Source: Lentzea atacamensis
GTDB lineage: Bacteria > Actinomycetota > Actinomycetes > Mycobacteriales > Pseudonocardiaceae
NCBI RefSeq assembly: GCF_003269295.1
Contig: NZ_QLTT01000005.1
Coordinates: 124,001 to 188,000 of the forward strand
DNA: 64,000 nucleotides
Direction: 5' to 3'
Shown here: piece after piece, positions 6,235 through 49,070 of the stretch
Layout of the letters: each line of letters begins with the position of its first letter
Numbering within the stretch: the first letter of the stretch is position 1
The notes under the pieces: generated by a model
What the model was told of the DNA's origin: nothing
The model's database searches: none
The model's input: the letters and a program-made list of their open reading frames with translations, nothing else
Program-made: the position numbers and the translations under genes

Positions 6235-7137
6235 GTGACGAGTCCAGTGGATGACGTCGCGAACAAGACCGCGCAGGCGGTCGGGTTCTTCGAGAAGTAC
6301 GGCCCGATGATCCTGACGGGCGCGATCAAGATCGTCGTGATCCTGATCGTCGCCATGGTGCTCAGGGCCATGCTTCGCAAGGTCATCGACCGGATCACCA
6401 CCCCCGGCAAGGAAGGCAAGAAGCCGGGGCTGCTCAAGCCGTTGCGCGAGAGGGCGCCCCAGGCGCTCGGAAACCTGATCTCCGAGCGCAGGGAGCAGCG
6501 CGCCAAGACGATCGGCTCGGTGCTGAAGTCCGTCGTCACGATCATGATCTTCGGAATAGCGTTCCTGGAGATCATGATCGTGGTCGGCATGGACATCACG
6601 CCGATCCTGACCTCGGCGGGCATCCTGGGCGTCGCGCTCGGCTTCGGCGCCCAGAACCTGGTCAAGGACTTCCTGTCCGGCATGTTCATGCTGTTGGAGG
6701 ACCAGTACGGCGTCGGCGACGTCGTGGACCTGGGCCCTGCGACCGGCACCGTCGAGGCCGTCGCGCTGCGCACCACGACGATCCGGGACACGAGCGGCAC
6801 CGTCTGGTACGTCCGCAACGGCGAGATCCTGCGCGTCGGCAACTCGTCGCAGGGCTTCGCGGTCGCCGTCGTCGACCTGCCGCTGAGCTACGGCGCGAAC
6901 CTCGCGGAGGCCACCCAGGTGCTCGAGCGCAAGGTCGCCGAGGTGGCGGAGAAGGATCCGGTCAAGTCGGACATCACGGCCAAGCCCGACGTCCTCGGTG
7001 TCGAGAAGTTCACGCCGGACGGCATCACGTTGCGCGTGACCGTGAAGACGCGGCCCGGCCGGCAGTGGGCGGTCCAGCGTAACCTGCGCGCGCAGCTGAT
7101 GCCCGCGCTGGAGGAGGCCGGCTTCACCGCCAAGTAA
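6235..7137 (+). CDS. Small-conductance mechanosensitive channel family protein (MscS)
   Basis: A 300-residue protein starting at GTG 6235 with GGAGG at 6221-6225. It has membrane spans around residues 20-45 and 95-150, and then the pore-lining and beta-domain signature [35 protein letters not shown] typical of MscS. The C-terminal cytoplasmic vestibule follows. It releases solutes on osmotic downshock. It probably shares a transcript with the peptidase gene just upstream. Confidence 0.9.
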
Positions 7138-7276
7138 GACGCACGCGGCGCCGGGTGAGTTAGAACACCCATTCGAGACGATGATCACTCGGCGTCCTGC
7201 CAGCTCACGCCTGTGTGGCGGAACCAATAGCCGGGGCGGCCTGCGGGCGGTGGCTCGCGTGAGTCAGGATGGTTGT

Positions 7277-30784: not shown

Positions 30785-30857
30785 GCCTCCGTAGCTCAGT
30801 GGAGAGAGCGAGGGACTTCTAATCCCGAGGTCGCAGGTTCGAATCCTGCCGGGGGCG
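30785..30857 (+). tRNA. tRNA-Arg (anticodon TCT)
   Basis: Acceptor GCCTCCG pairs with CGGGGGC (one G-T), the D stem is GCTC/GAGC, the anticodon loop is CTTCTAA with TCT in the middle, and the T arm is GCAGG TTCGAAT CCTGC. CCA is not encoded. The top pair of the anticodon stem is an A-G mismatch. The 3' part is the integration site of the downstream element. Confidence 0.95.
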
Positions 30858-30858
30858 C
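30815..30858 (+). repeat. attL core, 44 bp
   Basis: Runs from the anticodon loop to just past the tRNA 3' end. It is identical to 48984-49027. The identity is typical of tyrosine-integrase elements that use tRNA genes and rebuild the gene on entry. Confidence 0.95.
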
Positions 30859-30869
30859 CCAGATGGAAT

Positions 30870-30905
30870 AGGGCCTCTGACCTGCAAGAACAGGTCAGAG
30901 GCCCT
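30870..30905 (+). terminator. Terminator downstream of tRNA-Arg
   Basis: Perfect 15-base arms (30870-30884 and 30891-30905) around CAAGAA. A close variant lies past attR at 49037-49070, so the element appears to have brought a matching terminator. Confidence 0.85.
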
Positions 30906-30983
30906 CCTCCTTGCTCCAGGCTTTGTTGATCTTCAGGGCTGTTCGTGGTGCCGTGCGTGGTGCGAACGGGCTACCGTCGCACC

Positions 30984-32561
30984 ATGACGAAGCGCAAAGC
31001 AGGCCCCAAGAGCCGCAAGCGCGGCCGGATCGAGACCCTCCCCAGCGGCGCGCTGAGGGTCAGTGTCTACGCGGGCATCGACCCGCTGACGAAGCTCCGG
31101 CACTACCTCAAAGAGACCATTCCGGCCGACCACCCCGAACTGTGGGACGAAGCCGAGCGAGTACGGACACGCCTGCTCAACCAAGTTGACGAGCAGCACA
31201 ATCCCCGCACAAAGGCGACGGTCAATCAGCTCATGGACGAGTACCTGGCGAAGGTGGACGTCGATACGAGCACGAAGATCGGTTACGAGCGGGCAGCCCG
31301 GAACCACATTCGCCCGCTCTTGGGTCGCTTGCAGGTGGGCAAGCTGGACGGCCACACGCTCGACTCGTTCTACTCGACATTGCGCACGTGCCGTGCCCAT
31401 TGCGGTGGCAAGGGCAAGTTCATCGAGCATCGAAAGAAGCCGCACGACAAGAGCGAGTGCGATGACCGATGCAAGCCACACGCGTGCAAGGGCTTGGCTG
31501 ACTCCACGATCCGGCAGATCCACTCAATCCTCAGCGGCGCGCTTGAGCGCGCGATTCGGTGGGGCTGGATCACCGTCAACCCGATCGAGCAAGCCGAACC
31601 GCCGAAGACTCCGACTCCAAACCCGCATCCGCCCGAGCCTGAGGAAGCGGCCTCCATCGTGAATGAGGCCTTCAAGGACTTCGCCTGGGGTGTGCTGGTG
31701 TGGCTCGCCATCATTACTGGCGCACGACGCGGCGAGCTGTGCGCACTCCGATGGGACTGGCTCGACCTCAACAAAGCGGTATTGAGGATTCGCACCAGCA
31801 TCGGCCAAGAGGGCGCGAAGACGTGGGAGAAGGACACGAAGACTCACCAGCAACGCCGGATCGCCCTTGACCAGGAAACCGTTGACCTCCTGCGCGCGTA
31901 CCGTCAGCATTGCGAAGAACTCGCCAAAGAGATGGGACAGAAGATCGCACGTGACGGCCGGATCTTCTCCACATCGACCGACCACAGCACGTGGCTGAAG
32001 CCTGACTCCGTCTCGCAGAGGTTCTCCCGGATGTGCGACAAGCTGGAGATCGAGACCAGCTTGCACGCACTGAGGCACTACTCGGCAACCGAACTCATCG
32101 CGGCGGGTGTCGACCCGCGCACTGTGGCGGGACGCCTCGGCCACGGTGGAGGCGGCGCGACAACGCTTCGCGTGTACTCAGCCTGGGTGTCGGAGGCTGA
32201 TCAGCGCGCGGCAGGGAACCTGAGCGGAAGGATGCCCAGCGCGCCGATCTCCTTCGATGCGGACGGCAGCGCCACCATTACCGTCACGCCTGAGATTCGC
32301 GGCCCGTACCAGCAAATCGCCGCTGACCTACGTGGCGCCATCGTGTGCGGCGCATTGAAGCCGGGCGACACCCTTCCGACCGTGGTCGAACTCTGCCAGC
32401 GCTACAACGTGGCCGCGGGAACCGCGAATCGCGCGGTAGCCGAACTGAAGGCCGATGGACTGGTGACAGCGAGCCGAGGAAAGCGCGCGGTAGTCGCCCC
32501 GCTGAGTGAGTCGAGCTTCGCGAACGTCGTCAGTCTGAGGAGCAAGCGCGCGGGCGAGTAA
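30984..32561 (+). CDS. Tyrosine site-specific integrase with C-terminal GntR-type domain
   Basis: A 525-residue protein. ATG 30984 is six bases after TACCGT, so probably leaderless. It has an N-terminal arm-binding region, a SAM-like core-binding domain (about 80-215) with an unusual Cys/His-rich insert (CRAHCGGK...CDDRCKPHACKG), and a catalytic domain with Arg248 (TGARRGEL), His361-Arg364 (LHALRH) and Tyr398 (LRVYSAW). After the catalytic domain, residues about 432-505 form a GntR-like winged helix (YQQIAADLRGAIVCGALKPGDTLP). It integrates the element at tRNA-Arg. Confidence 0.93.
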   Translation: MTKRKAGPKSRKRGRIETLPSGALRVSVYAGIDPLTKLRHYLKETIPADHPELWDEAERVRTRLLNQVDEQHNPRTKATVNQLMDEYLAKVDVDTSTKIGYERAARNHIRPLLGRLQVGKLDGHTLDSFYSTLRTCRAHCGGKGKFIEHRKKPHDKSECDDRCKPHACKGLADSTIRQIHSILSGALERAIRWGWITVNPIEQAEPPKTPTPNPHPPEPEEAASIVNEAFKDFAWGVLVWLAIITGARRGELCALRWDWLDLNKAVLRIRTSIGQEGAKTWEKDTKTHQQRRIALDQETVDLLRAYRQHCEELAKEMGQKIARDGRIFSTSTDHSTWLKPDSVSQRFSRMCDKLEIETSLHALRHYSATELIAAGVDPRTVAGRLGHGGGGATTLRVYSAWVSEADQRAAGNLSGRMPSAPISFDADGSATITVTPEIRGPYQQIAADLRGAIVCGALKPGDTLPTVVELCQRYNVAAGTANRAVAELKADGLVTASRGKRAVVAPLSESSFANVVSLRSKRAGE

Positions 32562-32567
32562 GGCTGC

Positions 32568-33518
32568 TAGGGCGTGTCCGCCGGAACGCTGATCGTGGGG
32601 TTTGATCAAATTGCGTTGTGGCGCGTGGTGATCTGACGGATGCGGAGTGGGCGATCCTGGAGCCGTTGCTGCCGGCTCCGAAGCCGGGTCGTGGCGGCCG
32701 GTGGGGTGATCGTCGTCGGGTGATCAACGGAATCCTGTGGCGCATGCGGACAGGCGCTCCGTGGCGGGATGTGCCGGAACGGTACGGGCCGTGGAAAACC
32801 TGTTATGAGCGTTATCGCCGGTGGGCGGCGGACGGGACGTGGGCGCGGCTCAAGCGGCAGGTCCAGGGCCGGGCCGAGGCCGAAGGGGACATCGACTGGA
32901 ACGCCCAGGTCGATTCCACGATCGTGCGCGCCCACCAGCATGCGGCGGGTGCTCGTAAAGGGGGCTGAGCCCGGAGGAATCGCGGGCAGCCCGGGGCCTT
33001 GGCGGTCACGGGGTGGTTTGACGTCCAAGATCCACACTATCGGCGAAGGACGCGGAAGATCGCTGGCGACCCGGGTCACTCCTGGTCAGGCCGCTGATAC
33101 CAAGCAGCTGGAGTCGTTGCTGGAGGACATCGCCGTGCCCCGGCCCGGCAAGGCCGGTCGTCCGCGCAAGCGTCCGGACTCGCTGACCGGGGACAAGGCC
33201 TACGGCAGCAAGGCCAATCGCGCCCTGCTGCGGAGCAAGAAGATCAAGGCGGTGATCCCCGAACGCCGGGATCAGGTCAGCAACCGGCTACGCAAGGGAT
33301 CCAACGGTGGACGGCCGCCATCGTTCGACAGCACCCGGTACAGGCAGCGCAACCAGGTCGAGCGAGGGTTCAACCGCCGCAAGCAGTTCCGCGCAGTGGC
33401 CACCCGCTACGACAAGCTGGGCAGCCACTGGCAAGCCACCAACGACCTGATCGAGATCATCGACTGGATCCGCGCTACACCAGACAAAACCCGGTCATGA
33501 CCCGGCGGACACGCCCTA
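32568..33518 (+). mobile_element. IS5-family insertion sequence
   Basis: Perfect 17-base inverted ends: TAGGGCGTGTCCGCCGG at 32568-32584 and its complement at 33502-33518. The outer TA may be the target duplication, leaving 15-base ends. It lies between the integrase gene and a Nudix gene, whose stop codon falls in the right end. Confidence 0.9.
32618..33500 (+). CDS. IS5-family transposase in two overlapping frames
   Basis: The first frame (32618-32968, 116 residues) carries the N-terminal DUF4096-like part (DLTDAEWAILEPLLP, INGILWRMRTGAPWRDVPERYG) and the first catalytic Asp (QVDSTIVRAHQH). The second frame, ending at 33500, carries GGLTSKIHTIGEG, DKAYGSK and the Glu region RYRQRNQVERGFNRRKQFRAVATRYDK. 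Joining them needs a +1 (or -2) shift, most likely at AAAGGGGG near 32959-32966. This can be programmed frameshifting, known in IS5 subgroups, or a simple indel. All three DDE positions are present. Confidence 0.85.
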
Positions 33519-34199
33519 AAGGTCCAACGCCTTCAGCACCGGCCGGTAGATGCGGTCGGCCGGGATGAGACCGACCAAGCGCGACTTGTCCACCCACATC
33601 ACGTCCGCGTTCTCGAACGCGTCGATGTTCTTCGCCACGCCGGCGACGTAGTCACAAAGCACGTAGTCGCAGAGAACCCGCGTCGCGGGATGCAGTCGCG
33701 TCCCGAGTCCCCCACGCACGACGCAGTGAACATCCGTCTCGCTGAGCGTTTCACGGACGGCGATCGTCTCTGGTGCCGCACCAGGCTTGACCATTCCGGC
33801 TGGAAACTGCCATCCAGCCGAACCGTCGTCACCACGGCGACGCACGATCAACACCTCTGATCCCCTCAACACGACCGCTATTGCCACGCGCAACGGGTGG
33901 GCGGCGGAGTGCGTGTCTGGCCGTCGAGGCGGCGACAGCAGTTCAGCAATCGGCATACCGAAGATGCGTTCGAGCAACCGGGCGTTGGCAGGACGCACCG
34001 GCCCCAGCGGCGTTCCGTCTTTCCGAACTCCGGCGACCAGCCGTAGAAGATGCCGCACGCTCAGCGTGCCCGGCTCGTTGTGTTCGCGAGCGAAGTCCAT
34101 CGCGAACTCCACGAACTCCTCATAGGTCAACTGTCGCGCCTTGATCTGCTCTTCGAGCACGGTGCGGGCAGGTGTCGCCGTCAACGTCGTCCCGGTCAT
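33516..34199 (-). CDS. HTH-Nudix regulator, 3' end at IS boundary
   Basis: A 227-residue protein from ATG 34199, preceded by GGGAGG. The N-terminal part (to about 90) is XRE-like and the C-terminal part is a Nudix domain. The Nudix box (GMVKPGAAPETIAVRETLSETDVHC) is degenerate: the first Glu and one of the paired Glu are replaced, as in the paralogue at 44757. The TAG stop uses TA plus G from the IS end, and the protein ends a few residues earlier than its paralogue. Nudix proteins of this kind serve as transfer immunity factors (Pif) in pSAM2; the same role is inferred. Confidence 0.8.
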   Translation of the reverse strand: MTGTTLTATPARTVLEEQIKARQLTYEEFVEFAMDFAREHNEPGTLSVRHLLRLVAGVRKDGTPLGPVRPANARLLERIFGMPIAELLSPPRRPDTHSAAHPLRVAIAVVLRGSEVLIVRRRGDDGSAGWQFPAGMVKPGAAPETIAVRETLSETDVHCVVRGGLGTRLHPATRVLCDYVLCDYVAGVAKNIDAFENADVMWVDKSRLVGLIPADRIYRPVLKALDL

Positions 34200-34301
34200 C
34201 CCCGACCTCCCCACCAGTGGCGCTCAAACGGCGCACTCATGGCATCCGTATGTCATGTTCATCAGCCTGGGTCAACGTCAGGCTTGATTTCAGTCTGGCA
34301 C

Positions 34302-36191: not shown

Positions 36192-36836
36192 GTGAAGTGC
36201 ACGGGATGCGGACAACCGTTGGCGACAGGGTCGAAGCGCGGGCGACCGGCCCGCTATCACAACGCAGCATGTCGGCAGCGTGCCCGACGCGCCCGTGTCG
36301 CCGCCCGTCACGGGGACGTCTTGGCGGCCGTGGCCGCTGTCGAGGCTGCGGCTGCCGAGGTGCGTCACGCGGTACTGACAGACGGCGACGCGGACCAGGT
36401 CGCCCGTCAGCTCACGCGTGCCGCTGCTGAACTCGCCCGGCTCGTGACACCGACTCCCGCTGTCGAGCCGGTCGAACCGCCCGCACCCGCTGTCACGAAA
36501 CCTGCCACGGAAGCGAAGCCGCGAACGAGCCGCTCCGCGCGATCGACGCGACCTGCTCCGCTGGACCTGGACACGGTGCGGCTCGAACGCTCGTCGGACC
36601 CGACGCGGACAGGTTGGCGAGTCTTGGCCGGGAAGACAGACGCGCCGGTCCTGGTGGGGTTCTTGGAACCGGTGTTGTCGGTGACAGGGCGACGTAGTAG
36701 CCGCTGGGCAGCGCAGACCGCAAGCATGACTCGCGTGCACGGTGGACCGTGGCGCAACCGGATGGACGCTCTGGCGCGTCTGGTGGACGACTACCAGCGT
36801 GCCACGGCGCGACCACGGCGACACACGATCACATAA
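36192..36836 (+). CDS. Zinc-finger-like small protein of the island
   Basis: A 214-residue protein from GTG 36192. The N-terminus has Cys3-x2-Cys6 and His23-x3-Cys27 (RYHNAACRQRARRAR), a plausible zinc finger followed by basic residues suited to DNA binding. The middle is alanine-rich helix, then a Pro/Ala linker, and the C-terminus is a small basic domain. Similar proteins occur in actinomycete integrative elements. The inverted repeat upstream may be bound by it. Function unknown. Confidence 0.7.
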   Translation: MKCTGCGQPLATGSKRGRPARYHNAACRQRARRARVAARHGDVLAAVAAVEAAAAEVRHAVLTDGDADQVARQLTRAAAELARLVTPTPAVEPVEPPAPAVTKPATEAKPRTSRSARSTRPAPLDLDTVRLERSSDPTRTGWRVLAGKTDAPVLVGFLEPVLSVTGRRSSRWAAQTASMTRVHGGPWRNRMDALARLVDDYQRATARPRRHTIT

Positions 36837-36843
36837 ACCGTGT

Positions 36844-36873
36844 GTCGCAGGTTCGAATCCTGCCTGGGCACCA
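36844..36873 (+). repeat. tRNA 3'-end-like fragment, internal att remnant
   Basis: The T-arm GTCGCAGGTTCGAATCCTGCC (in two parts, 36844-36864) is identical to the tRNA-Arg T-arm, but the next bases TGGGCACCA differ and end in CCA. No matching 5' tRNA half precedes it. It is best read as an attachment-site scar from another tRNA gene. Confidence 0.75.
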
Positions 36874-36889
36874 CCTTTCGTCGGGTGAA

Positions 36890-36934
36890 ATCAAGCTCTG
36901 ACCAGCGGCAACGCGGTCAAAGCTTGATCTTTTT
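36890..36934 (+). terminator. Rho-independent terminator after the tRNA-like fragment
   Basis: ATCAAGCT (36890-36897) pairs with AGCTTGAT (36921-36928), with an inner TGACC/GGTCA stem, and is followed by CTTTTT. This is the arrangement expected behind a tRNA gene. Confidence 0.8.
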
Positions 36935-37170
36935 AGGCAGTCACCGTCAGCGGGAATCTGCCCCGTTTGCCGCCGTCTACGGACTCACCACGGACTGGCG
37001 TTCCCGACGAGACCCACCCTTGCAACTCCGCACCCGCCGCCGGATCGCCCAAGCGACGACTTGGCTCCTCAGTGACATCTGCTGCGCCAACTCGACCGCC
37101 GATCTTGGTCAGCGGATGCCCAGGCGGAATCCTGAAGCACAAACGCGCAGGAACACCTAGAATCGCTCGG

Positions 37171-38430
37171 ATGACGTCGTCGCCAGCGCTAGTAAATCTC
37201 CCGCCCCAAGCTTTCAACATGCTAGTCATGTCATGGGTCCAAGCTCTCGCCACCAAAGAACTAGAAGTAGAAAACGGCGAGCAGTCAGGAACAATATCAC
37301 CTTCTACCGGCGTTTCGAGTCAATGGACATTCACCCGAGCCGATGGAGTTGGATTTAAGGTCCAGCGGTCAGCGGACGATTCAACGTGGATCATCGTCGC
37401 CGACACCGACCTGAATCGATCCAAAGTTGGTTCGATTATCGAGCGCGCCGTCAACGCTGCCTCCAGACAGGAATTCGGGGAAGTGCAGTGCTATAGAGCG
37501 GAACTCACATCCGACATACCAGGAGTTAGAGAGCTACTGACATCGCAGTTTATGCGACTAATGAGCGAAAAGGTCTACATCGAAGGAAGGAGAAGACTTG
37601 GCGACATCGCAATTCTTACCTTCAAGCCAGAAGGGCCAGCCGATGACAATCCCTTCCATGTTCCAAGAACGACAATTTCGGTCCACATGTTCGTGCCAGC
37701 ACCTTGTGTCAGCCCATTCAGCGACAAGATCGCCACAGATCTGATCGAGACGATCAGATTGATCAGCACTTTTGCCATGGGACGTCCAGTAGATTGGTCT
37801 ACTGCGGTTTCTGTTCCCGCAACAGAAGACGAGGCCAGAGACGCCACCGAAGTCCGATTCGATCCAGCCGTACTAACCCTCGCGCGAAACGGCGTACCTC
37901 TCGACATCTTCGGACTCACCGGCACAGCGAGTCCAGAGGTGATGCAAAAAGTACGAAGCTCTCTAATCTCTTACGATGCCGCAATCCGACAGACAAACCC
38001 TGACGTGGCGACCATACTATTTGTCGCCGGCATGGAGGCGCTCACTATTCCAGCAACCGAATGGCGCCGACAACGGCCGGTTGCCCGATTCGTTCAGGCG
38101 GTGAACGAGCTATGCCCAAACGTCATCGACGCAATCATTGCTCACCTGAACTTCGGCACCGCTTTTGGTATAACCCTACGGGGAGGCGCCCAGAAGAAGC
38201 GCAAGGCGTTCCTCGACAAGGTATACGATCTTCGATCAACTCCAGTGCACTCGGGACCAAGTCTGTTCTCAAATCCGATGATGGCGGGAGCACAGCCAGG
38301 AACGCAACGAGTGGCGCTACTCTCAGAGCTGCACTACCAGCACGTGTTGGCATATATCTCATCACCTCGATCATCCCTGATCGGCCATCCGGAGATTGCC
38401 CCTGGAACCGCCCCCGGCTTGAAGCAATAA
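37171..38430 (+). CDS. Apea-like HEPN domain protein, candidate defence ribonuclease
   Basis: A 419-residue soluble protein from ATG 37171; the longer open frame upstream has different composition. The C-terminal third is helical and contains KVYDLRSTPVHSG with Arg355-x4-His360, the RNase motif of HEPN domains, in the context typical of Apea-like HEPN proteins. The N-terminal part is an uncharacterised alpha/beta region, as in that family. HEPN RNases act in toxin, abortive infection and phage defence systems. The gene is less GC-rich than the core genome. It converges on the PD-(D/E)xK-like gene, 39 bases apart. Confidence 0.7.
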   Translation: MTSSPALVNLPPQAFNMLVMSWVQALATKELEVENGEQSGTISPSTGVSSQWTFTRADGVGFKVQRSADDSTWIIVADTDLNRSKVGSIIERAVNAASRQEFGEVQCYRAELTSDIPGVRELLTSQFMRLMSEKVYIEGRRRLGDIAILTFKPEGPADDNPFHVPRTTISVHMFVPAPCVSPFSDKIATDLIETIRLISTFAMGRPVDWSTAVSVPATEDEARDATEVRFDPAVLTLARNGVPLDIFGLTGTASPEVMQKVRSSLISYDAAIRQTNPDVATILFVAGMEALTIPATEWRRQRPVARFVQAVNELCPNVIDAIIAHLNFGTAFGITLRGGAQKKRKAFLDKVYDLRSTPVHSGPSLFSNPMMAGAQPGTQRVALLSELHYQHVLAYISSPRSSLIGHPEIAPGTAPGLKQ

Positions 38431-38469
38431 GGATTAGAACCCGAGCAACCCTTCAATCGTTCGCGTGGT

Positions 38470-39654
38470 TCACCTCGCAAACGGTTCACCGAGTGGCCAA
38501 GGGCTAGGAAGACCCAGTGACAAACGCGCAGGCTCGGTAGCCTCATTGAGCGCTACCACACCGTTCAAAAAACTGACATTCCTCCAACAATTCGGCACCG
38601 GAATGGACTCGAGGGCGAATGGATTGCCCCAATAGGTTGGAGTGCGGTCCGCCCAATTCCATGGATGGCAGGCGTGAACGGCCAGAACTCCAACAACGCC
38701 GGTGTATCTAGGGTTCAGAGGTCCACCCCAAAATCCGTCTTCCTCTCTCACCTCCCACGAGCGCCAAACCTTATTTTCGTCAAATTCACCCGCCTCACGC
38801 ATAGTGCCATACAAGGCGTGCTCCATATCCTCCTCACTATATGACCAGCTGTCAGTCCCCACCGCTATAAGGTAAGGCCGGTCGAACTTGCCATAGGCAG
38901 AGCCCTTCCCTTTCAGCGCAACCAAGATCGGCCTGACGTCATCAGAGATCCTGAAGCCTTCCATGATCACACCAAGCGTTCTACCGCTTGCCCTCTCACG
39001 ACTTTTCTGACTTCTTGGAAGCACATGAATATAGACGACCCAGTCGTCACGCCTCCACACCATCGACGGAGACCTCCTCCCGTCATTGCCACCGATCTTG
39101 TACGCATTGATCTCGTCGACATCCAATCCCGTAACCCAGGTAAGGATGTCTCGCTTCATCACTCGAACAGGGGGAGCACCTGAGCCAACCCTCTCGATAT
39201 TGACCGCAAGAAAAATCTCAGAAACGCCCAGATTGTTGATCGCGTCCAGCACGACGCCTTTAGCATTTCTTACCGGAGTACCCGCATCACGGTCAAAAAC
39301 CCTACATGCTTCTACGTAGAACGAGTGACCGTTCCCCACCGCCAGAAAGTCTGGCTTTCTAGACGTCCCCGCGACACTCGGATGACATTCGACCTCATAA
39401 TCCAAGCCGAGGAGCATCTCGTGGAGGTACAGCTCCCACAGCGCGGCATGAACATTGCGATCGGTATTTTTGTCGCGAATACGGGACCGAAGGTCTTTTT
39501 GGCCTCCGGCAGGAAACCGTAGTAGCCAGCGCTCTATAACCTCCCTGACCTGGTCCCAATACTCTCCTTTAACACGGTTCAAGAACACCGCAAACGACTC
39601 AGAGTTGCCCTGCTCGCTGGCATCGTGGCGAACGATCTCGTCAAAGACCTTCAT
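38470..39654 (-). CDS. PD-(D/E)xK-like nuclease-fold protein, candidate defence effector
   Basis: A 394-residue protein from ATG 39654, six bases after a CATAAT -10 motif (leaderless); the frame runs upstream to 39804 without conserved sequence. Residues about 65-120 have the nuclease-fold pattern: a Glu-rich helix (ALWELYLHEMLLGL), then KPDFL with Asp102 and FYVEAC with Glu115. The usual Lys is replaced (EAC), a known variation. The remaining 270 residues are unrecognised, with many aromatic residues. Lower GC than the flanks. A restriction-like or abortive infection role is inferred from fold and location. Confidence 0.6.
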   Translation of the reverse strand: MKVFDEIVRHDASEQGNSESFAVFLNRVKGEYWDQVREVIERWLLRFPAGGQKDLRSRIRDKNTDRNVHAALWELYLHEMLLGLDYEVECHPSVAGTSRKPDFLAVGNGHSFYVEACRVFDRDAGTPVRNAKGVVLDAINNLGVSEIFLAVNIERVGSGAPPVRVMKRDILTWVTGLDVDEINAYKIGGNDGRRSPSMVWRRDDWVVYIHVLPRSQKSRERASGRTLGVIMEGFRISDDVRPILVALKGKGSAYGKFDRPYLIAVGTDSWSYSEEDMEHALYGTMREAGEFDENKVWRSWEVREEDGFWGGPLNPRYTGVVGVLAVHACHPWNWADRTPTYWGNPFALESIPVPNCWRNVSFLNGVVALNEATEPARLSLGLPSPWPLGEPFAR

Positions 39655-39936
39655 CCAGCCATTATGGGGGGAGCTGTCGGCGTTGCGGCAGGAGTTTACC
39701 GATGGCTGCTCAAGCGGGCGGATGCGTTGTTCGAGCTGACCGCGTTGCGCGTGATGCTGAGGCGCAACGTCACCAATCAGGCCAAGAGCGCATTCGACAA
39801 GCACTCGATCTTGGCGTTGATCATCTCACGTTGACCGTCGATGCGTTTCGCAATGGATGATCGTGTGGTGACAGGTCCGGCCGTGTGCCGCGCCCACGTC
39901 GAGATGGCGCGGCATACGGCCGTTTTCCCGTCGTTG
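39655..39936. other. Non-coding stretch before repeat cluster
   Basis: I see no supported gene. An open frame on the plus strand (39625-39834) overlaps the start of the nuclease-like gene and has no recognisable product; it may be a fragment. Confidence 0.35.
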
Positions 39937-40061
39937 TGACGGGTCACCCGTCACGCGTCACACCCGTCACGGCGGCCCGTTTCCGCTGGTGAGCATCGGT
40001 TTGGCACCCGTCACGGGGCGTGTGACGGGTGACGGGTCCGGTGGGACGGGTTGTGACGGGT
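39937..40061. repeat. TGACGGGT octamer cluster, candidate clt/TraB-recognition locus
   Basis: Exact TGACGGGT at 39937, 40023, 40030 and 40054, exact complement ACCCGTCA at 39946, 39962 and 40006, and one near match GGACGGGT at 40044: eight copies in 125 bases, the last touching the stop codon of the FtsK-like gene. In Streptomyces plasmids the TraB translocase binds 8-bp repeats located at this position. Confidence 0.85.
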
Positions 40062-42229
40062 CAGCGATCATCGTCGATCACCTCCGCCTCGATCACTGCG
40101 GCGTCGCGAGCACGCTGGATCGCCGCGCGGATATCGGCGACCGCGTAGCCGCGCACCTGCTTCACGCCGTCCTCTGTGGGCACGCGGCCACGGGTGGGAC
40201 TACAGCCGAACGCGGCCATGTCGAGCCCGAACGCCTTGGGCTCGACTCCCAACGCGTCCACGAGTTCGGCGGTGGGTACGAAGTCCCGTCCGTCGTCGCT
40301 GCCGAGATCGTCGGCCAGGTAGTCCACAACGGACACCAGTGGTTCCGGTAGCTCGATCTCGTCCACGCGTTTGGCGGCGGCGGGTGCGGGTGCACCACCA
40401 CCAATGGCCTTCGCCACGGCCGCGTGGTCGAACACCGGTTGCGATGCCTGCCCCGCCGCGTGCCCGGTGAGCGTGCCCTCCGCCTCGCGCAACGCTCGCC
40501 CGCGTTGGCAGATCTCCCGCCAGTCCTCGTTGGCCATGTAGAACGTGCGCACGGTCAGCGCGAGTAAATCGGCGCCTGCTTGGGTCTCGCCGTCCGGCCG
40601 CAGGATGCCCACGCCCTTGTGGGAGGGCAGGAGACGACTGGAGTCGTACCCGCGCGTGTTCATCTGCTCGCCCAGGATGATGTTGCTGTCGCGCCAGTCC
40701 ATCACCCGCAACGCGAACCGCGACCCGAGCACCGCGCGCAAGTTGGACGGGATGGTCTTGCTGTCCGGCCGCTGCGTCGCGAGCACGAGGATCACACCGG
40801 CCGCCGGCGCCTTCTTCGCCAACCAGGTCAGCAACTCGCCGATGTACTCGCCAGCGGTGAGCTTCTTCCCTTGCACCTCAACGGGAGTACGGTCCTCTAG
40901 CGGAATCTGCACCTCGTCCACGACCAGGGCCGTGATCGGCATGTCCAGGGCTGGATCACGCGACATGTCCGGCGTCACCTTCGACTCAGGACACGTCAGG
41001 TCATCGAGATCCTGCATCCTGCGGTACCGGCCCTGGACGTCCGCGACCAGTTCCACGAGCCAATCCAGAAACGCCAACACGTGCTCGCTGTCGTCGCCGG
41101 ACATGAACCGGTGCGCCACCTGCTCGGCAGCCTTCCAATCCTTGCCGTTCTTGAAGTCCGCCACGTACAGGCGCGTGTGCGGGTCCAAGATCAAGCCCGC
41201 GGCCGCCAGCCGTTCGGCCATTGTCTTGCCCTGCCTGGGAATCGCGCCGATGAGCACAGACGTCCACACCAACGGCAGGTCGATCCGGCGGCCGCGTGCG
41301 TCGGTGCCGAACGGCACCGGCCGCCACGCATCCCACCGGTGCACCCCGAGCAATGGCGTCCGGATGGGCGGCTTCGCGTACGGGTCCTCATCAGCCACCC
41401 ACATCGCTACCCGCCCGGCATGCCCGCCGTTGCCGCGCACCCGCTCCACGCTGAGCTGGATCTCATCCACCGCCAGGGCGGACGCGAGTGCTTCACGATG
41501 CTTCACGACATCGGCCGCCTTACGGGTCGCGGGCAGATCGACCGTGACCGCCCATCCCTCACCCCTGCGCGTGGCCCGGTCGACCAGGCGCAGGGTCTCG
41601 TCCTTCCCGATGAGCTTGGCGTCCCGGAACGCGTCCACGAGTACCTGAGGGTCCATCGTCCAAGTGAGCGTGCGAGGACCCGCGAGCACTGCCTTGCGTC
41701 CGGGACTGCCGTCCTTGCGCCTGCCGAGGATCGCCAGCGCCACCGACGCGCTACCGCCGGCGATCCACAGCACCCGGTGCCCGTACACGAGATCGAGCAC
41801 CGCGACCACGACCGCCACCGTGGCCACGGTCGCCCCGGTGACCTTCCACCGGAACAGCGTCAGCTCTCGGATGTCGGTGAACTTGTCCGCGAGCTTCTCC
41901 GACTGCTCGGCTGCCTCCCGGTAGTCCCGCACGGTCACCCATGAACGCCACCACCGGACCGCGACCACCAGGCCGCGCACGACCGCGCCCATGAGCCGGA
42001 ACGGTGAACGCAGCACGGCCACCACGAGATCCTTCACGGCCTGCACCGCGTGAACGCGATCCTTCGCCCACAACGGCACACGCGGTGAACGCCGCCACCA
42101 GTTCACGACTCGCCGACGCCACGACGTCTGCTCGACTGGCGGGACGTCGTTCACGAACTCGCCTTCGAGCACCGCACGCGCAGGCAGGGAGGAGTCCACG
42201 CCAGCCAGTTCCCGACCGTCGTTCGTCAT
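40061..42229 (-). CDS. FtsK/SpoIIIE-like DNA translocase, conjugal transfer protein (TraB type)
   Basis: A 722-residue protein from ATG 42229. Two or three membrane spans lie around residues 60-185. The motor domain has Walker A GAIPRQGKT (Lys near 333) and Walker B ITALVVDEVQ (near 438), with VILVLATQRPDSKTIPSNLRAVLGSRFALRV. The C-terminus (about 650-715) is a small helical, winged-helix-like domain, the part that reads recognition octamers in TraB. Such proteins move double-stranded plasmid DNA between hyphae. Its start overlaps the upstream gene by four bases. Confidence 0.9.
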   Translation of the reverse strand: MTNDGRELAGVDSSLPARAVLEGEFVNDVPPVEQTSWRRRVVNWWRRSPRVPLWAKDRVHAVQAVKDLVVAVLRSPFRLMGAVVRGLVVAVRWWRSWVTVRDYREAAEQSEKLADKFTDIRELTLFRWKVTGATVATVAVVVAVLDLVYGHRVLWIAGGSASVALAILGRRKDGSPGRKAVLAGPRTLTWTMDPQVLVDAFRDAKLIGKDETLRLVDRATRRGEGWAVTVDLPATRKAADVVKHREALASALAVDEIQLSVERVRGNGGHAGRVAMWVADEDPYAKPPIRTPLLGVHRWDAWRPVPFGTDARGRRIDLPLVWTSVLIGAIPRQGKTMAERLAAAGLILDPHTRLYVADFKNGKDWKAAEQVAHRFMSGDDSEHVLAFLDWLVELVADVQGRYRRMQDLDDLTCPESKVTPDMSRDPALDMPITALVVDEVQIPLEDRTPVEVQGKKLTAGEYIGELLTWLAKKAPAAGVILVLATQRPDSKTIPSNLRAVLGSRFALRVMDWRDSNIILGEQMNTRGYDSSRLLPSHKGVGILRPDGETQAGADLLALTVRTFYMANEDWREICQRGRALREAEGTLTGHAAGQASQPVFDHAAVAKAIGGGAPAPAAAKRVDEIELPEPLVSVVDYLADDLGSDDGRDFVPTAELVDALGVEPKAFGLDMAAFGCSPTRGRVPTEDGVKQVRGYAVADIRAAIQRARDAAVIEAEVIDDDR

Positions 42230-43071
42230 CGCACGCCACCTCCGTCCGATGGGGGTGTGTCGGTCAGCTCGGCCGCGAGCGTTGCGGCGAGCCGAGACGA
42301 CAGGCCACGCGAGCACCTGGTGACCTCACGGACCCACGCCGGACTCACCACGACACCAGGCGACCACGCTTCACGCGCAACCGTCAGGTAGTCCGCGAAG
42401 GACACTCGGCCGTTGCTGCGCTTGTTGTTGCGCTGCTTAGGTTTCACCGATTCATGAACGGCCTTTGTGGGCAAATCCGCGGTGACTGGTGAGACGCGTG
42501 CGGACGCTTCCGTGAACGCCGCCGAGACAGCCTCGGTGAGCTTGTCCCGCAGGTCCGTCACTGCCTCTGCGGCGACGAACACCACGAGCGGCGGAACCGA
42601 GTGCAACACGACTCCGGACACCGAACCGGCCGCCCACGAGTGCCAGGTATTCATGACGTACGTGGCCGCGAGCGTGAACCACTTCGCCCGCCGCGTCCAC
42701 GCACCCGTACGCACCTGATACCGCGCGGTCACCTGCTCGGCCCGCAGGATCGCCAGCAACACCAGCGACACCGTGGGATCAAGCAACCACGCCGCCAGCC
42801 ACGGCAACGACCACGCCGGCGTACCTGCCGCCGCGAACGACTGCACGTTGGTCATGGTGAACCCGAGACCCAACACGATCCCCGCCCAACACAAGCGGTC
42901 CACCTGAGCGCGCACGCGCTCCACCCGCAACGCGATCACGTCCGGGTGCGTGGCGTACGCACGCAGTTCCGCCGCCTCCGCCGCATCGGCCGCGAGTCGC
43001 TCGGCCGCCGGGGCGGCGGGTGGCCGCCCGAAGGCGGCCACCCCTTCCCTGACCCTTGTGAGCGTGTTCAT
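42226..43071 (-). CDS. DUF2637 membrane protein (Spd-like)
   Basis: A 281-residue protein from ATG 43071. Around residues 55-190 it has four predicted membrane helices with the DUF2637 pattern (WAGIVLGLGFTMTNVQSFAA; WLLDPTVSLVLLAILRAEQ). The soluble C-terminus is basic and carries a helical region (RVSFADYLTVAREAWSPGVVVSPAWVREVTRCSRGLSSRLA) that may bind DNA. It overlaps both neighbours by four bases in the transfer operon. DUF2637 proteins are typical of actinomycete conjugative elements and are thought to help plasmid spread. Confidence 0.85.
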   Translation of the reverse strand: MNTLTRVREGVAAFGRPPAAPAAERLAADAAEAAELRAYATHPDVIALRVERVRAQVDRLCWAGIVLGLGFTMTNVQSFAAAGTPAWSLPWLAAWLLDPTVSLVLLAILRAEQVTARYQVRTGAWTRRAKWFTLAATYVMNTWHSWAAGSVSGVVLHSVPPLVVFVAAEAVTDLRDKLTEAVSAAFTEASARVSPVTADLPTKAVHESVKPKQRNNKRSNGRVSFADYLTVAREAWSPGVVVSPAWVREVTRCSRGLSSRLAATLAAELTDTPPSDGGGVR

Positions 43072-43399: not shown

Positions 43400-43756
43400 T
43401 TACTGCCCTCCGTCCCGGTCCTCGTTCATCCGGTCGCGGCGGGCACGCCACACCCGGTAGAGCGCACGGCGGTCCTCTCCTGTCAGTCCGCCGCACACGC
43501 CGAACTGGTACTCACCAGCAAGGCGCAACTCCCACTCCAGGCAGAGCCTCCGCACCGGGCACGGCTCGCACAGACGAGCCGCCAACTCCCGATCGGTGAT
43601 CTCCTCGGCCTGCCACTCCGGCTGTTCCTCGGTGGACCACAACCACATGCACGTGCCGTCACGCGTGACGATCTCCATCAGGACCGCGTCGGGCACCTTG
43701 GCGTAGCGGTCGAGCTCGGCCGCGATCACCTCGTAGTAGTTCTCCGGGTTCACCAC
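43400..43756 (-). CDS. WhiB-family iron-sulfur regulator
   Basis: A 118-residue protein from GTG 43756. It has the Wbl cysteines: one in DGTCMWLW and then CEPCPVRRLC (CxxCx5C), followed by the turn GVCGGLTGEDRRAL, where GVWGG is usual. These ligate a 4Fe-4S cluster; Wbl proteins partner sigma factors. Its place as second gene of the transfer operon, overlapping the excisionase-like gene by 7 bases, suggests that transfer is tied to redox or development signals. Confidence 0.88.
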   Translation of the reverse strand: MVNPENYYEVIAAELDRYAKVPDAVLMEIVTRDGTCMWLWSTEEQPEWQAEEITDRELAARLCEPCPVRRLCLEWELRLAGEYQFGVCGGLTGEDRRALYRVWRARRDRMNEDRDGGQ

Positions 43757-44025
43757 GCACCCCCGGTCTTCCGCTCGAACTCGCGAGCCTCGCGGCGCTC
43801 GGCAGCGATGCGCGCGGGATCGACGAGACCACCGGTCTCCGTGGCCTGGGCGAGCAACTGATCAAGCGCCACGGCGGGCACCACGTAGCGGGTGCGCAGT
43901 TGGACAGCGGGGAAGTCCCCTTCCCTGATCACTCGGTAGAGCGTTGAGGGTGCGACGCGCAGAATCCGCGCCGCCTCCCGAACTGTGTAGAACGCCGGAC
44001 GGGCGTTCTCGGGCTTGCCATTCAT
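43750..44025 (-). CDS. Excisionase-family (MerR-like) DNA-binding protein
   Basis: A 91-residue protein from ATG 44025. The N-terminal winged helix (FYTVREAARILRVAPSTLYRVIREGDFPAVQLRTRYVVPAVALDQLL) is the excisionase family. It heads the five-gene operon that ends with the translocase. It may act as Xis for the integrase 13 kb away or as operon regulator. In pSAM2-type elements xis sits next to int, so its distance from int is unusual. Confidence 0.82.
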   Translation of the reverse strand: MNGKPENARPAFYTVREAARILRVAPSTLYRVIREGDFPAVQLRTRYVVPAVALDQLLAQATETGGLVDPARIAAERREAREFERKTGGAW

Positions 44026-44075
44026 GACGTTGGTTCCCTTTCGGGCAAGGCTGGATAATTTAAGACGAAGATTCA

Positions 44076-44089
44076 GGATGATTTCATCC
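44076..44089. promoter_or_regulatory. Candidate operator between divergent transfer and XRE genes
   Basis: GGATGATTTCATCC: six-base arms around TT. It lies in the 170-base divergent region and is a likely binding site for the XRE regulator encoded at 44196. Confidence 0.55.
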
Positions 44090-44151
44090 CACCCAGATGC
44101 AAAGGGAGCCAAAACCGCGGGCACCAAGCCGTTATGCGGCCCGCGGAATTG

Positions 44152-44190
44152 CCTCCGCGCTACGCTCGGCAGTGAGGCGGAGCGCGGAGG
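44152..44190 (+). promoter_or_regulatory. Inverted repeat spanning promoter and ribosome site of XRE gene
   Basis: CCTCCGCGCT (44152-44161) is the exact complement of AGCGCGGAGG (44181-44190), which contains the ribosome site GGAGG. A TACGCT -10-like element (44161-44166) overlaps the left arm. It may be an operator, or a hairpin hiding the ribosome site in longer transcripts. Confidence 0.6.
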
Positions 44191-44195
44191 AATAC

Positions 44196-44621
44196 GTGAC
44201 GGAAGACTGGGGCGCAGTCGCAAGAGCGATCAACCAGCGCATGTCCGAGCTGGGCATGAATCAGCGCGAACTCACGGAACGCTCGCAAGTCTCGAAGGCG
44301 ATCGTTGGCGAACTTCAGAACAACAAGGTTCAGCGCCGCCGCAGTGAACGCACGCTCGAAGCGCTCTCCGTCGCGCTCGACTTGCATCCCAACCACCTGC
44401 ACGCCGTGCTGTCCGGCCGCCGGCCACCGCAGGCGGGAGAGCCTGCCGCACGGGATGACGACATCCCCGGTCGTCTCTCCGTGATCGAGCACCAGTTGCG
44501 CGAAATCCTGGATCGACTCGGCGGAATCGACGCTCTGACTGATCAGGTAAAGGAGATCAGCGCGAATGTCGAAACCGTCGTCGAGCGGCTGGATATCAAC
44601 CGCAAACGGCCCGATCGGTGA
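44196..44621 (+). CDS. XRE-family regulator with coiled-coil tail
   Basis: A 141-residue protein from GTG 44196, five bases after GGAGG. The N-terminal helix-turn-helix (INQRMSELGMNQRELTERSQVSKAIVGELQNNK) is followed by a tail with heptad-like leucines and isoleucines (about 95-135) fit for dimerisation. It is divergent from the transfer operon and is the best candidate for its repressor. Confidence 0.82.
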   Translation: MTEDWGAVARAINQRMSELGMNQRELTERSQVSKAIVGELQNNKVQRRRSERTLEALSVALDLHPNHLHAVLSGRRPPQAGEPAARDDDIPGRLSVIEHQLREILDRLGGIDALTDQVKEISANVETVVERLDINRKRPDR

Positions 44622-44756: not shown

Positions 44757-45425
44757 GTGGATTTGGTGCGCGAGTGGACTGGCCGCAAGGCGTGCGCGCT
44801 CCAGGCTGCGTTACGCGAGACAAACGACTCGTTCGCCGCGCGTCTCGGCATTCCGGCCCGCACCGTGGTGAGCTGGCACCAGAAACCAGACCTCAAGCCG
44901 AGAACGGCCCAACAGCAACTTCTTGACGTTCTCTTGGAGCGTGCCTCGCCCAACGAGCGCGCGAGGTTCGCGGCAGAGCTGGCCGACGACTCCTCGAATG
45001 ATCAACTCGACGACCCGACAGGAAGCGGTCACGCTCTCAGAGTCGCCGTTGCGGTCGTGGTTGACGATACAAATGTCCTTGTGGTTCAACGGCGCGACGA
45101 CAGCGGAAATATGTCCTGGCAGTTCCCCGCCGGAATGATCAAACCAGGCGTATCGCCTGAAACTGTCGCCGTGCGCGAAACACTGGGCGAGACGGCCGTT
45201 CATTGCAGGGTCGTCCGACACCTTGGCGGCCGCTTGCACCCTGTGACCAACGTGTACTGTGTGTACCTTCTCTGCGAATACCTAGGCGGAGAGGCGCAGA
45301 ATATGGATGTTGCGGAGAACGTCGGCGTGACCTGGACACCTAGCAACAGGCTGACCCGGTTCATCCCTGCGGAAACAATCTTTCCACCGATCTTGGAAGC
45401 ATTGGAGGTGCTAGACAGTGAGTGA
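44757..45425 (+). CDS. HTH-Nudix regulator, Pif-like candidate
   Basis: A 222-residue protein from GTG 44757. The N-terminal part is helix-turn-helix-like (FAARLGIPARTVVSWHQKP), the C-terminal part Nudix. The Nudix box GMIKPGVSPETVAVRETLGETAVHC lacks the first conserved Glu and has Gly for one of the paired Glu, so hydrolysis is doubtful. It is a clear paralogue of the 33516-34199 protein, including the replaced residues. It overlaps the next Nudix gene by 8 bases. In pSAM2 a Nudix protein, Pif, blocks transfer into cells that already hold the element. Confidence 0.8.
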   Translation: MDLVREWTGRKACALQAALRETNDSFAARLGIPARTVVSWHQKPDLKPRTAQQQLLDVLLERASPNERARFAAELADDSSNDQLDDPTGSGHALRVAVAVVVDDTNVLVVQRRDDSGNMSWQFPAGMIKPGVSPETVAVRETLGETAVHCRVVRHLGGRLHPVTNVYCVYLLCEYLGGEAQNMDVAENVGVTWTPSNRLTRFIPAETIFPPILEALEVLDSE

Positions 45426-45837
45426 ACAGACACCTGACGACGAGCGACCGCCGATCGCCGCCGCTGTTATTACACAGGACGGCGGGGTCTTGCTCGTCAG
45501 GCGTCGTGTCAAAGAGGGAAGTCTCTCTTGGCAGTTCCCCGCCGGCGAGGTCGAATCCGGCGAATCACCCGAATCTGCGGCTGCACGCGAAGCCAACGAG
45601 GAGACCGGTATCACGGTAAGCAACGGAAAGTTGCTCGGTGAACGCGTGCACCCCAACACCGGGCGCACAATGATTTACGTTGCGTTCGACTCCGCCGAAG
45701 GCGAAGCAAGCGTCGTGGACGACGACGAACTTGATTCGCTCGCATGGGTGAAGCACAGCGAGCTGACAACCTACGTTCCGTATCCGTTCTTCGGTCCTGT
45801 ACAAGCACACCTTGACGAAGTCCTGTCCAACAACTGA
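45418..45837 (+). CDS. Nudix hydrolase
   Basis: A 139-residue single-domain protein from GTG 45418. The Nudix box is fully canonical: GEVESGESPESAAAREANEETGI, with all catalytic Glu. It would hydrolyse a nucleoside diphosphate linked to another group; substrate unknown. It is co-translated with the degenerate HTH-Nudix protein upstream, so a catalytic and a non-catalytic Nudix protein may work together. A strong terminator follows. Confidence 0.9.
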   Translation: MSEQTPDDERPPIAAAVITQDGGVLLVRRRVKEGSLSWQFPAGEVESGESPESAAAREANEETGITVSNGKLLGERVHPNTGRTMIYVAFDSAEGEASVVDDDELDSLAWVKHSELTTYVPYPFFGPVQAHLDEVLSNN

Positions 45838-48983: not shown

Positions 48984-49027
48984 ACTTCTAATCCCGAGGT
49001 CGCAGGTTCGAATCCTGCCGGGGGCGC
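48984..49027 (+). repeat. attR core, 44 bp
   Basis: An exact copy of the tRNA-Arg 3' portion (30815-30858), without the tRNA 5' half. It marks the right end of the integrated element. Confidence 0.95.
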
Positions 49028-49036
49028 TCCACGAAG

Positions 49037-49070
49037 TGGCCTCTGACCTGCATGGACAGGTCAGGGGCCA
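49037..49070 (+). terminator. Original terminator of the tRNA-Arg locus
   Basis: TGGCCTCTGACCTG (49037-49050) pairs with CAGGTCAGGGGCCA (49057-49070) with one G-T pair, followed by TTTCTTTT. It is close in sequence to the terminator just inside attL. Confidence 0.85.

Follow-up and report, generated by a model that had tools for sequence, protein, structure and literature searches.

A window of 64,000 nucleotides from Lentzea atacamensis contains a cluster of octamers that abuts the 3′ end of an FtsK-like translocase gene. The question raised by this locus is whether the cluster serves as a clt locus, the site at which a TraB-like motor is loaded for conjugative transfer, as the initial annotation had proposed, or whether it belongs to replication or transcription instead.

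The host element

The cluster is part of an element that is integrated at tRNA-Arg and bounded by 44-bp att repeats. Its main features are as follows.

30815..30858, + strand: attL; 3′ portion of tRNA-Arg(tct), 44 bp matching attR exactly
30945..32561, + strand: tyrosine integrase that ends in a GntR helix-turn-helix domain
36844..36864, + strand: partial att copy of 21 bp, the third copy, within the element
40061..42316, − strand: TraB/FtsK-like DNA translocase of 751 aa with a predicted C-terminal winged helix
42226..43335, − strand: ORF upstream of traB, probable membrane protein located where an Spd protein would be (judged by location and inspection)
43400..43756, − strand: WhiB-type regulator
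43750..44223, − strand: excisionase-type helix-turn-helix protein
48984..49027, + strand: attR, copy of the 44-bp repeat

In addition, the element encodes a DUF5753 regulator, two Nudix proteins, and an MFS protein, and the ORF upstream of traB has no match in Pfam or NCBIfam. The element has the integrase and the att sites that characterize an AICE. Pfam recognized no replication protein among 17 ORFs within the att repeats, which are a subset of the ORFs of the element (three further scanned ORFs fall outside the repeats), and none among 10 ORFs of the region of a sister element in the same genome. Elements without a replicase are classed as defective AICEs in the available part of PMC9513070; because no Rep was recognized, the present element may be defective. 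A stem-loop of the form CTGACCTG...CAGGTCAG follows both att copies (30877-30898 and 49043-49064), and three such stem-loops occur genome-wide. Its stem resembles the clt core word described below, perhaps by chance, or perhaps as part of a tRNA terminator.

The octamer cluster

The cluster is composed of the following parts, listed from the traB end outward.

39937..40061, − strand: octamer cluster, candidate clt; order in the sense of traB ++++- [core] ---+, one-mismatch copies included
40054..40061, + strand: exact TGACGGGT; base 40061 is shared with the traB stop codon
40044..40051, + strand: one-mismatch octamer GGACGGGT, inside the cluster
40030..40037, + strand: exact TGACGGGT
40023..40030, + strand: exact TGACGGGT
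40006..40013, − strand: exact TGACGGGT, inverted relative to the four traB-proximal octamers (40023-40061)
39978..39992, − strand: single-copy conserved core TCACCAGCGGAAACG (consensus TGACCWGCGNAAAC)
39962..39969, − strand: exact TGACGGGT, first octamer past the core, spacing 8 nt
39953..39960, − strand: one-mismatch octamer TGACGCGT, inside the cluster
39946..39953, − strand: exact TGACGGGT
39937..39944, + strand: exact TGACGGGT
39869..39876, + strand: one-mismatch octamer TGACAGGT, outside the cluster, 60 bp beyond

Hence, the 125 bp of the cluster hold seven exact copies of TGACGGGT in both orientations, as originally annotated, and two one-mismatch copies. The annotation had counted one near copy; near copies do exist, but there are two inside the cluster and a third beyond it. 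The last octamer was also said to reach the translocase stop codon, and indeed the stop codon of the traB-like gene (40061-40063) overlaps it by one base. The window contains 10 exact copies of TGACGGGT, as compared with a mean of 3.13 and a maximum of 7 in 100 dinucleotide shuffles, and more than one copy per 125-bp stretch never occurred in 60 shuffles of the window. Pairs of copies at most 30 bp apart, in either relative orientation, are found in the whole genome only in this cluster and in that of the sister element on contig C2 (530152-530276), which lies beside a second traB 94% identical to the one in the window.

In chromosome segregation, FtsK is steered by short polar words (KOPS) that are spread over the chromosome. 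The motor in the window is likewise of the FtsK family, whereas its octamer, unlike the scattered KOPS, is clustered. The genome-wide count suggested along with the clt proposal gave 258 copies of TGACGGGT in 9.3 Mb, versus 133 for the pattern read backwards; since this density of 1 per 36 kb is lower than in the window dinucleotide shuffles (1 per 20 kb), no general enrichment of TGACGGGT is seen, and a KOPS-like use is not supported. Past the cluster, a strong hairpin is formed by 39878-39894 and 39906-39922, with 17-nt arms that are 94% complementary and no evident T run; the folding energy of 39870-39932 is −43 kcal/mol.

The TraB-like motor and its C terminus

The motor matches Pfam FtsK_SpoIIIE with 26.1 bits (cut-off 24), and NCBIfam NF041214 (plasmid TraB) partially, with 29.9 bits as against a cut-off of 800. 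By sequence, its relatives among PDB entries are FtsK motors, which represent the nearest solved structures. The small C-terminal domain that had been noticed on the translocase is predicted to be a winged helix in an AlphaFold2 model (48-row alignment), with pLDDT above 90 in the winged helix, a helix at residues 693-702, and a wing from about residue 708. Within the modelled C-terminal piece of 145 residues, the helices correspond to 76-83 and 87-96 and are accompanied by a two-strand wing; 69 residues have a pLDDT of at least 90, and the mean is only 72.5 because the first 45 residues of the piece are disordered. Foldseek returned no match to this model below E 0.001 (best E 0.036), and its weak matches include many winged-helix-type regulators among the 50 listed.

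Clusters at the traB ends of related elements

A search of related genomes gave a match in 168 of 199 genomes, from which 80 of the listed places were taken, and the best 80 of 112 named loci were kept. Including the window and the sister element, the comparison set comprises 162 loci, 128 of which are distinct by TraB; the eleven nearest relatives by TraB among the best 80 of the 112 named loci are all from Lentzea. Each locus was scored by its best 8-mer between −60 and +260 relative to the traB stop, with at most one mismatch allowed, and a score of at least 5 was considered strong. A strong cluster is present at the traB end in 54 of the 128 distinct loci, with 6 further loci scoring 4.5 and 68 scoring lower. 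Among 640 shuffles, none reached 5 and five reached 4.5, and none of 128 stretches inside traB reached 4.5. The largest ORF downstream of the cluster differs among the loci.

The octamers themselves vary. Most of the clusters carry GTGACGGGT, and others GGGACGGG(T), GAGACGGGT, GTGACGGC, GGGACGGC, or GGGACAGG; TraBs that are 44-49% identical to that of the window are accompanied by other words, for example, TTCCGACC and GTTCCGGC. TGACGGGT differs from GACCCGGA of the Streptomyces plasmid pSVH1, as noted with the proposal of a new octamer specificity. As TGACGGGT is the commonest word in a family of related octamers, however, it does not represent a new specificity standing by itself.

Loci without a strong cluster have a different downstream neighbor. 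In 53 of these 74 loci, the 800 nt that follow traB encode the N terminus of a serine recombinase, compared with 0 of the 54 with a cluster, so that cluster and recombinase are mutually exclusive (Fisher 4e-19, a p-value that is too small because the loci are related). In L050-L056 and L161-L165, for example, a large serine recombinase begins about 150 bp past traB, with no octamer cluster. In cluster-less elements, a weak sliding scan over 20 loci (20 kb each) and 29 named ones without a cluster found no clt; it returned mainly GC-rich words, and as background scores reach 9.0, it may overlook clusters elsewhere in these elements.

A conserved core within a polar layout

In contrast to the repeated octamers, the core occurs once per array. 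With a first consensus that was typed after inspecting some of the loci, cores with at most four mismatches were found in 41 of the 54 cluster loci; shuffles predict 5.3, and the opposite strand has 1 of 54. The 74 remaining loci yielded 14 such cores versus 6.9 expected. A weight matrix built from 40 distinct sequences gives up to 1.7 bits at core positions and 0.1-0.5 bits in the flanks.

The layout count covered 50 of the 54 loci with a cluster (at least 55% TraB identity), 44 with a core of at least 10 bits and 6 without. The octamer that comes first past the core is in the "-" orientation in all 44 scored loci, at a spacing of 5-8 nt in 41 of them. Octamers left of the core are mostly "+" (125 "+" and 35 "-"), and those on the right mostly "-" (94 "-" and 55 "+"). 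The single pattern seen most often is +++ [core] --+ (5 loci), with the window showing ++++- [core] ---+.

No description of a conserved clt core was found in the available parts of PMC3583192, PMC4170104, PMC3218068, PMC9513070, and PMC12857230, and among the papers listed in a literature search for TGACCTGC, none concerned clt by title. The fixed polar layout around a conserved core is possibly a new feature.

Comparison with known plasmid clt systems

As a positive control, pSVH1 carries four direct copies and one inverted copy of GACCCGGA within about 110 bp past the traB stop, which bears out the earlier statement that pSVH1-type 8-bp repeats are located at the end of traB. It resembles the cluster in the window in several points: the array directly follows traB, four direct copies and one inverted copy precede the core, one inverted copy follows it (at most one mismatch), and the pSVH1 core TGACCTGCGCAAACA is an exact match. 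The octamers, on the other hand, are different (GACCCGGA versus TGACGGGT), which places the window outside the pSVH1 octamer class; pSVH1 is not integrated but a plasmid carrying an annotated rep, and the two TraBs are only about 31-35% identical over the motor. According to the part of PMC3583192 at hand, TraB of pSVH1 reads its 8-bp motifs through helix α3 of the C-terminal winged helix.

These data bear on the alternative that the array is an iteron-type replication origin, whose octamers would be bound by a replication initiator. Iterons are short clustered repeats as well, and the origin of pWTY27 has such repeats, which are separate from its clt (PMC3583192, in part). However, Pfam recognized no replication protein in the ORFs scanned in either element (an unrecognized Rep is possible), and the annotated rep of pSVH1 is situated about 2 kb away from the octamers. 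Because the cluster remains at the traB stop in 54 loci while the downstream ORF varies, a clt is favored, and an iteron origin appears highly improbable.

Ten further plasmid records were compared, nine picked from a set of 117 and one from another set. The short core word TGACCTGC is present in nine of them, and the remaining one has TGATCTGC; seven of the nine encode TraBs that are 60-75% identical to that of pSVH1. The best octamer beats ten shuffles in 9 of the 11 records that include pSVH1 (the exceptions being L249 and L255), and in records with an exact core, octamers on either side of it mostly point in opposite directions.

More distant systems share less. In pIJ101, TGACCTGC is found at 6887 amid GCAAC/GTTGC words, adjoining the ORF 6966-7208, which we take to be korB (hypothetical in the record). 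The plasmid holds two further copies of TGACCTGC, and by the weight matrix, the copy at 6887 is not among the best five of its strand. PMC3583192, as far as available, places the pIJ101 clt near korB and describes 5-bp repeats; unlike the window cluster, this clt is away from the 3′ end of traB and has no octamer array. The clt of pWTY27, consisting of the last 16 bp of traA and 159 bp beyond, is bound by TraA in vitro and required for transfer (same source, in part). Compared by this description only, it overlaps the end of a tra gene and contains repeated short words, as does the window cluster, but its word (the 7-bp TGACACC) is a different one.

Class-wide distribution of the core

A class-wide search with the TraB of pSVH1 covered 296 genomes, 93 of which matched. 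It yielded 47 usable loci after one was left out for being too short and three were dropped as already counted or belonging to the window family set. In the 200 nt past the stop, 13 of the 47 have exact TGACCTGC on the traB strand and none on the opposite strand; the word is found in 1 stretch inside traB, and shuffles give 0.14. Allowing one mismatch, the numbers become 22 on the traB strand, 5 on the other strand, 12 inside traB, and 5.6 in shuffles. The first batch had been inspected beforehand; among the 20 loci taken after the word was fixed, 3 carry it exactly. Repeated octamers beat all ten shuffles in 23 of the 47 loci; arrays are less distinct in this set, and no common octamer polarity is evident. 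The class-wide evidence for the core is weaker than that from the window family and the pSVH1-type plasmids.

It is rather unlikely, though a reading of some weight, that the site is a clt whose core is non-functional, being retained by common descent or as a common genomic word. Many of the loci are related, and the first consensus was typed with some of them in view. TGACCTGC occurs 917 times in the genome of the window, and CTGACCTG forms hairpins after both att sites. The weight matrix beats all 40 shuffles in only 5 of the 28 first-batch class-wide loci, the one-mismatch word is also frequent within traB (12 of 47 stretches, next to 22 of 47 loci), and pIJ101 has the word three times, with the copy near the presumed korB outside the best five. 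On the other hand, the information content is 0.1-0.5 bits in the flanks as compared with up to 1.7 in the core, and past the stop of the class-wide loci, the exact word is on the traB strand in 13 of 47 cases, with none on the opposite strand. As 917 genomic copies correspond to a chance occurrence of about 1% per locus, the 3 of 20 later-taken loci exceed expectation, and the word recurs in 9 of the 10 later plasmid records, although seven of their TraBs are close to that of pSVH1.

Covariation of octamer and winged helix

The residues CSS after a conserved Cys are found in all 6 loci with a GGC-type octamer and in none of the 48 others, a pattern that was spotted after the fact. On the motor tree, the octamer and CSS traits each change three times, and two independent pairs on well-supported branches agree, which are too few for a covariation test. 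Of 684 columns, the one holding the first residue of the predicted recognition helix comes second for octamer position 8, but the columns covarying best with position 2 fall in the motor. The partial correlation between octamer and winged helix given the motor is 0.24 (p 0.001), and that between octamer and motor given the winged helix is equally 0.24 (p 0.01), with one motor segment reaching 0.31. Covariation was not accepted as proof of octamer reading, since the winged helix does not stand out against the other parts of the protein, and the relation between octamer and winged helix is suggestive only.

A probable clt-type loading site and its possible mechanism

Taken as a whole, the comparisons make it very probable that the cluster is a clt-type TraB loading site with an octamer of its own. 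It is located in and beside traB of a mobile element, it contains several copies of a short repeat (within 7-9 bp), and the Tra protein ends in a winged helix in the AlphaFold2 model, with weak Foldseek matches. The clt assignment of the initial annotation is further supported by the traB-end clusters in 54 of 128 loci, by the octamers of pSVH1 at the same place, and by the layout and core common to pSVH1-type plasmids. Against it are the 74 of 128 loci without a strong cluster, the score of the motor far below the NF041214 cut-off, the possibly defective state of an element in which no Rep was recognized, the covariation shared with the motor, and the class-wide TraB loci, of which 23 of 47 exceed their shuffles for repeated octamers.

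An operator or terminator array, acting with a regulator or at the transcription end of the tra operon, would fit the strong hairpin past the cluster and the several helix-turn-helix proteins encoded by the element. The array, however, is downstream of the operon, at no promoter position; in pSVH1, TraB sites occupy the corresponding position (PMC3583192, in part), and the layout with its core is retained where the octamers change. Such a role is, therefore, very doubtful.

For Streptomyces TraB, DNA binding by the winged helix, hexamer formation, and pumping of double-stranded DNA are described (PMC3583192, PMC4170104, PMC12857230, each in part). By analogy, the TraB-like FtsK-family motor acting at the clt-type site would read the octamers via its predicted C-terminal winged helix, assemble on the cluster as a hexamer, and pump the circular double-stranded element into a neighboring cell. 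The polarity switch within the site would make motors load in opposite directions on its two arms, and a host factor or a conserved portion of TraB may contact the core, which is constant while the octamers change. Whether this extends to a grammar shared by actinobacterial clt loci is close to an even call and is put forward tentatively: lineage-variable octamers would form an ordered, polarity-switching array around the unchanging core TGACCWGCGNAAAC, with motors loaded oppositely on each arm and a conserved second reader at the center. If so, TraB loading on two arms would resemble a two-armed chromosome pump.

Under the clt reading, the TraB-octamer system of Streptomyces plasmids would also operate in a broad Pseudonocardiaceae family of integrated elements. 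Its dozens of naturally varied octamer-motor pairs offer material for working out the recognition code, and the core and polar layout provide concrete positions for asking how an FtsK-like protein chooses, loads, and orients double-stranded DNA.

Neighborhood of the cluster

Beyond the cluster, the stretch 36844-39930 begins with the 21-bp partial att copy and continues with about 3 kb of lower GC content (56%) containing two ORFs of unknown family. In L001, the sister element, a homologue of the ORF that ends at 36836 in the window directly follows the cluster. The two Nudix genes are adjacent (44757-45837) with an 8-bp overlap, and the ORF 33516-34214 appears related to them by eye. The protein encoded by 38470-39804 has no Pfam match; PADLOC, applied to five proteins of the element, gave two weak matches only, both to this protein, namely PD-T7-5 (20 bits) and PD-T7-1 (17 bits). 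The neighborhood of the sister element (L001:106-2811) encodes a NACHT protein with an NNH1 domain, a kind that is linked to phage defence.
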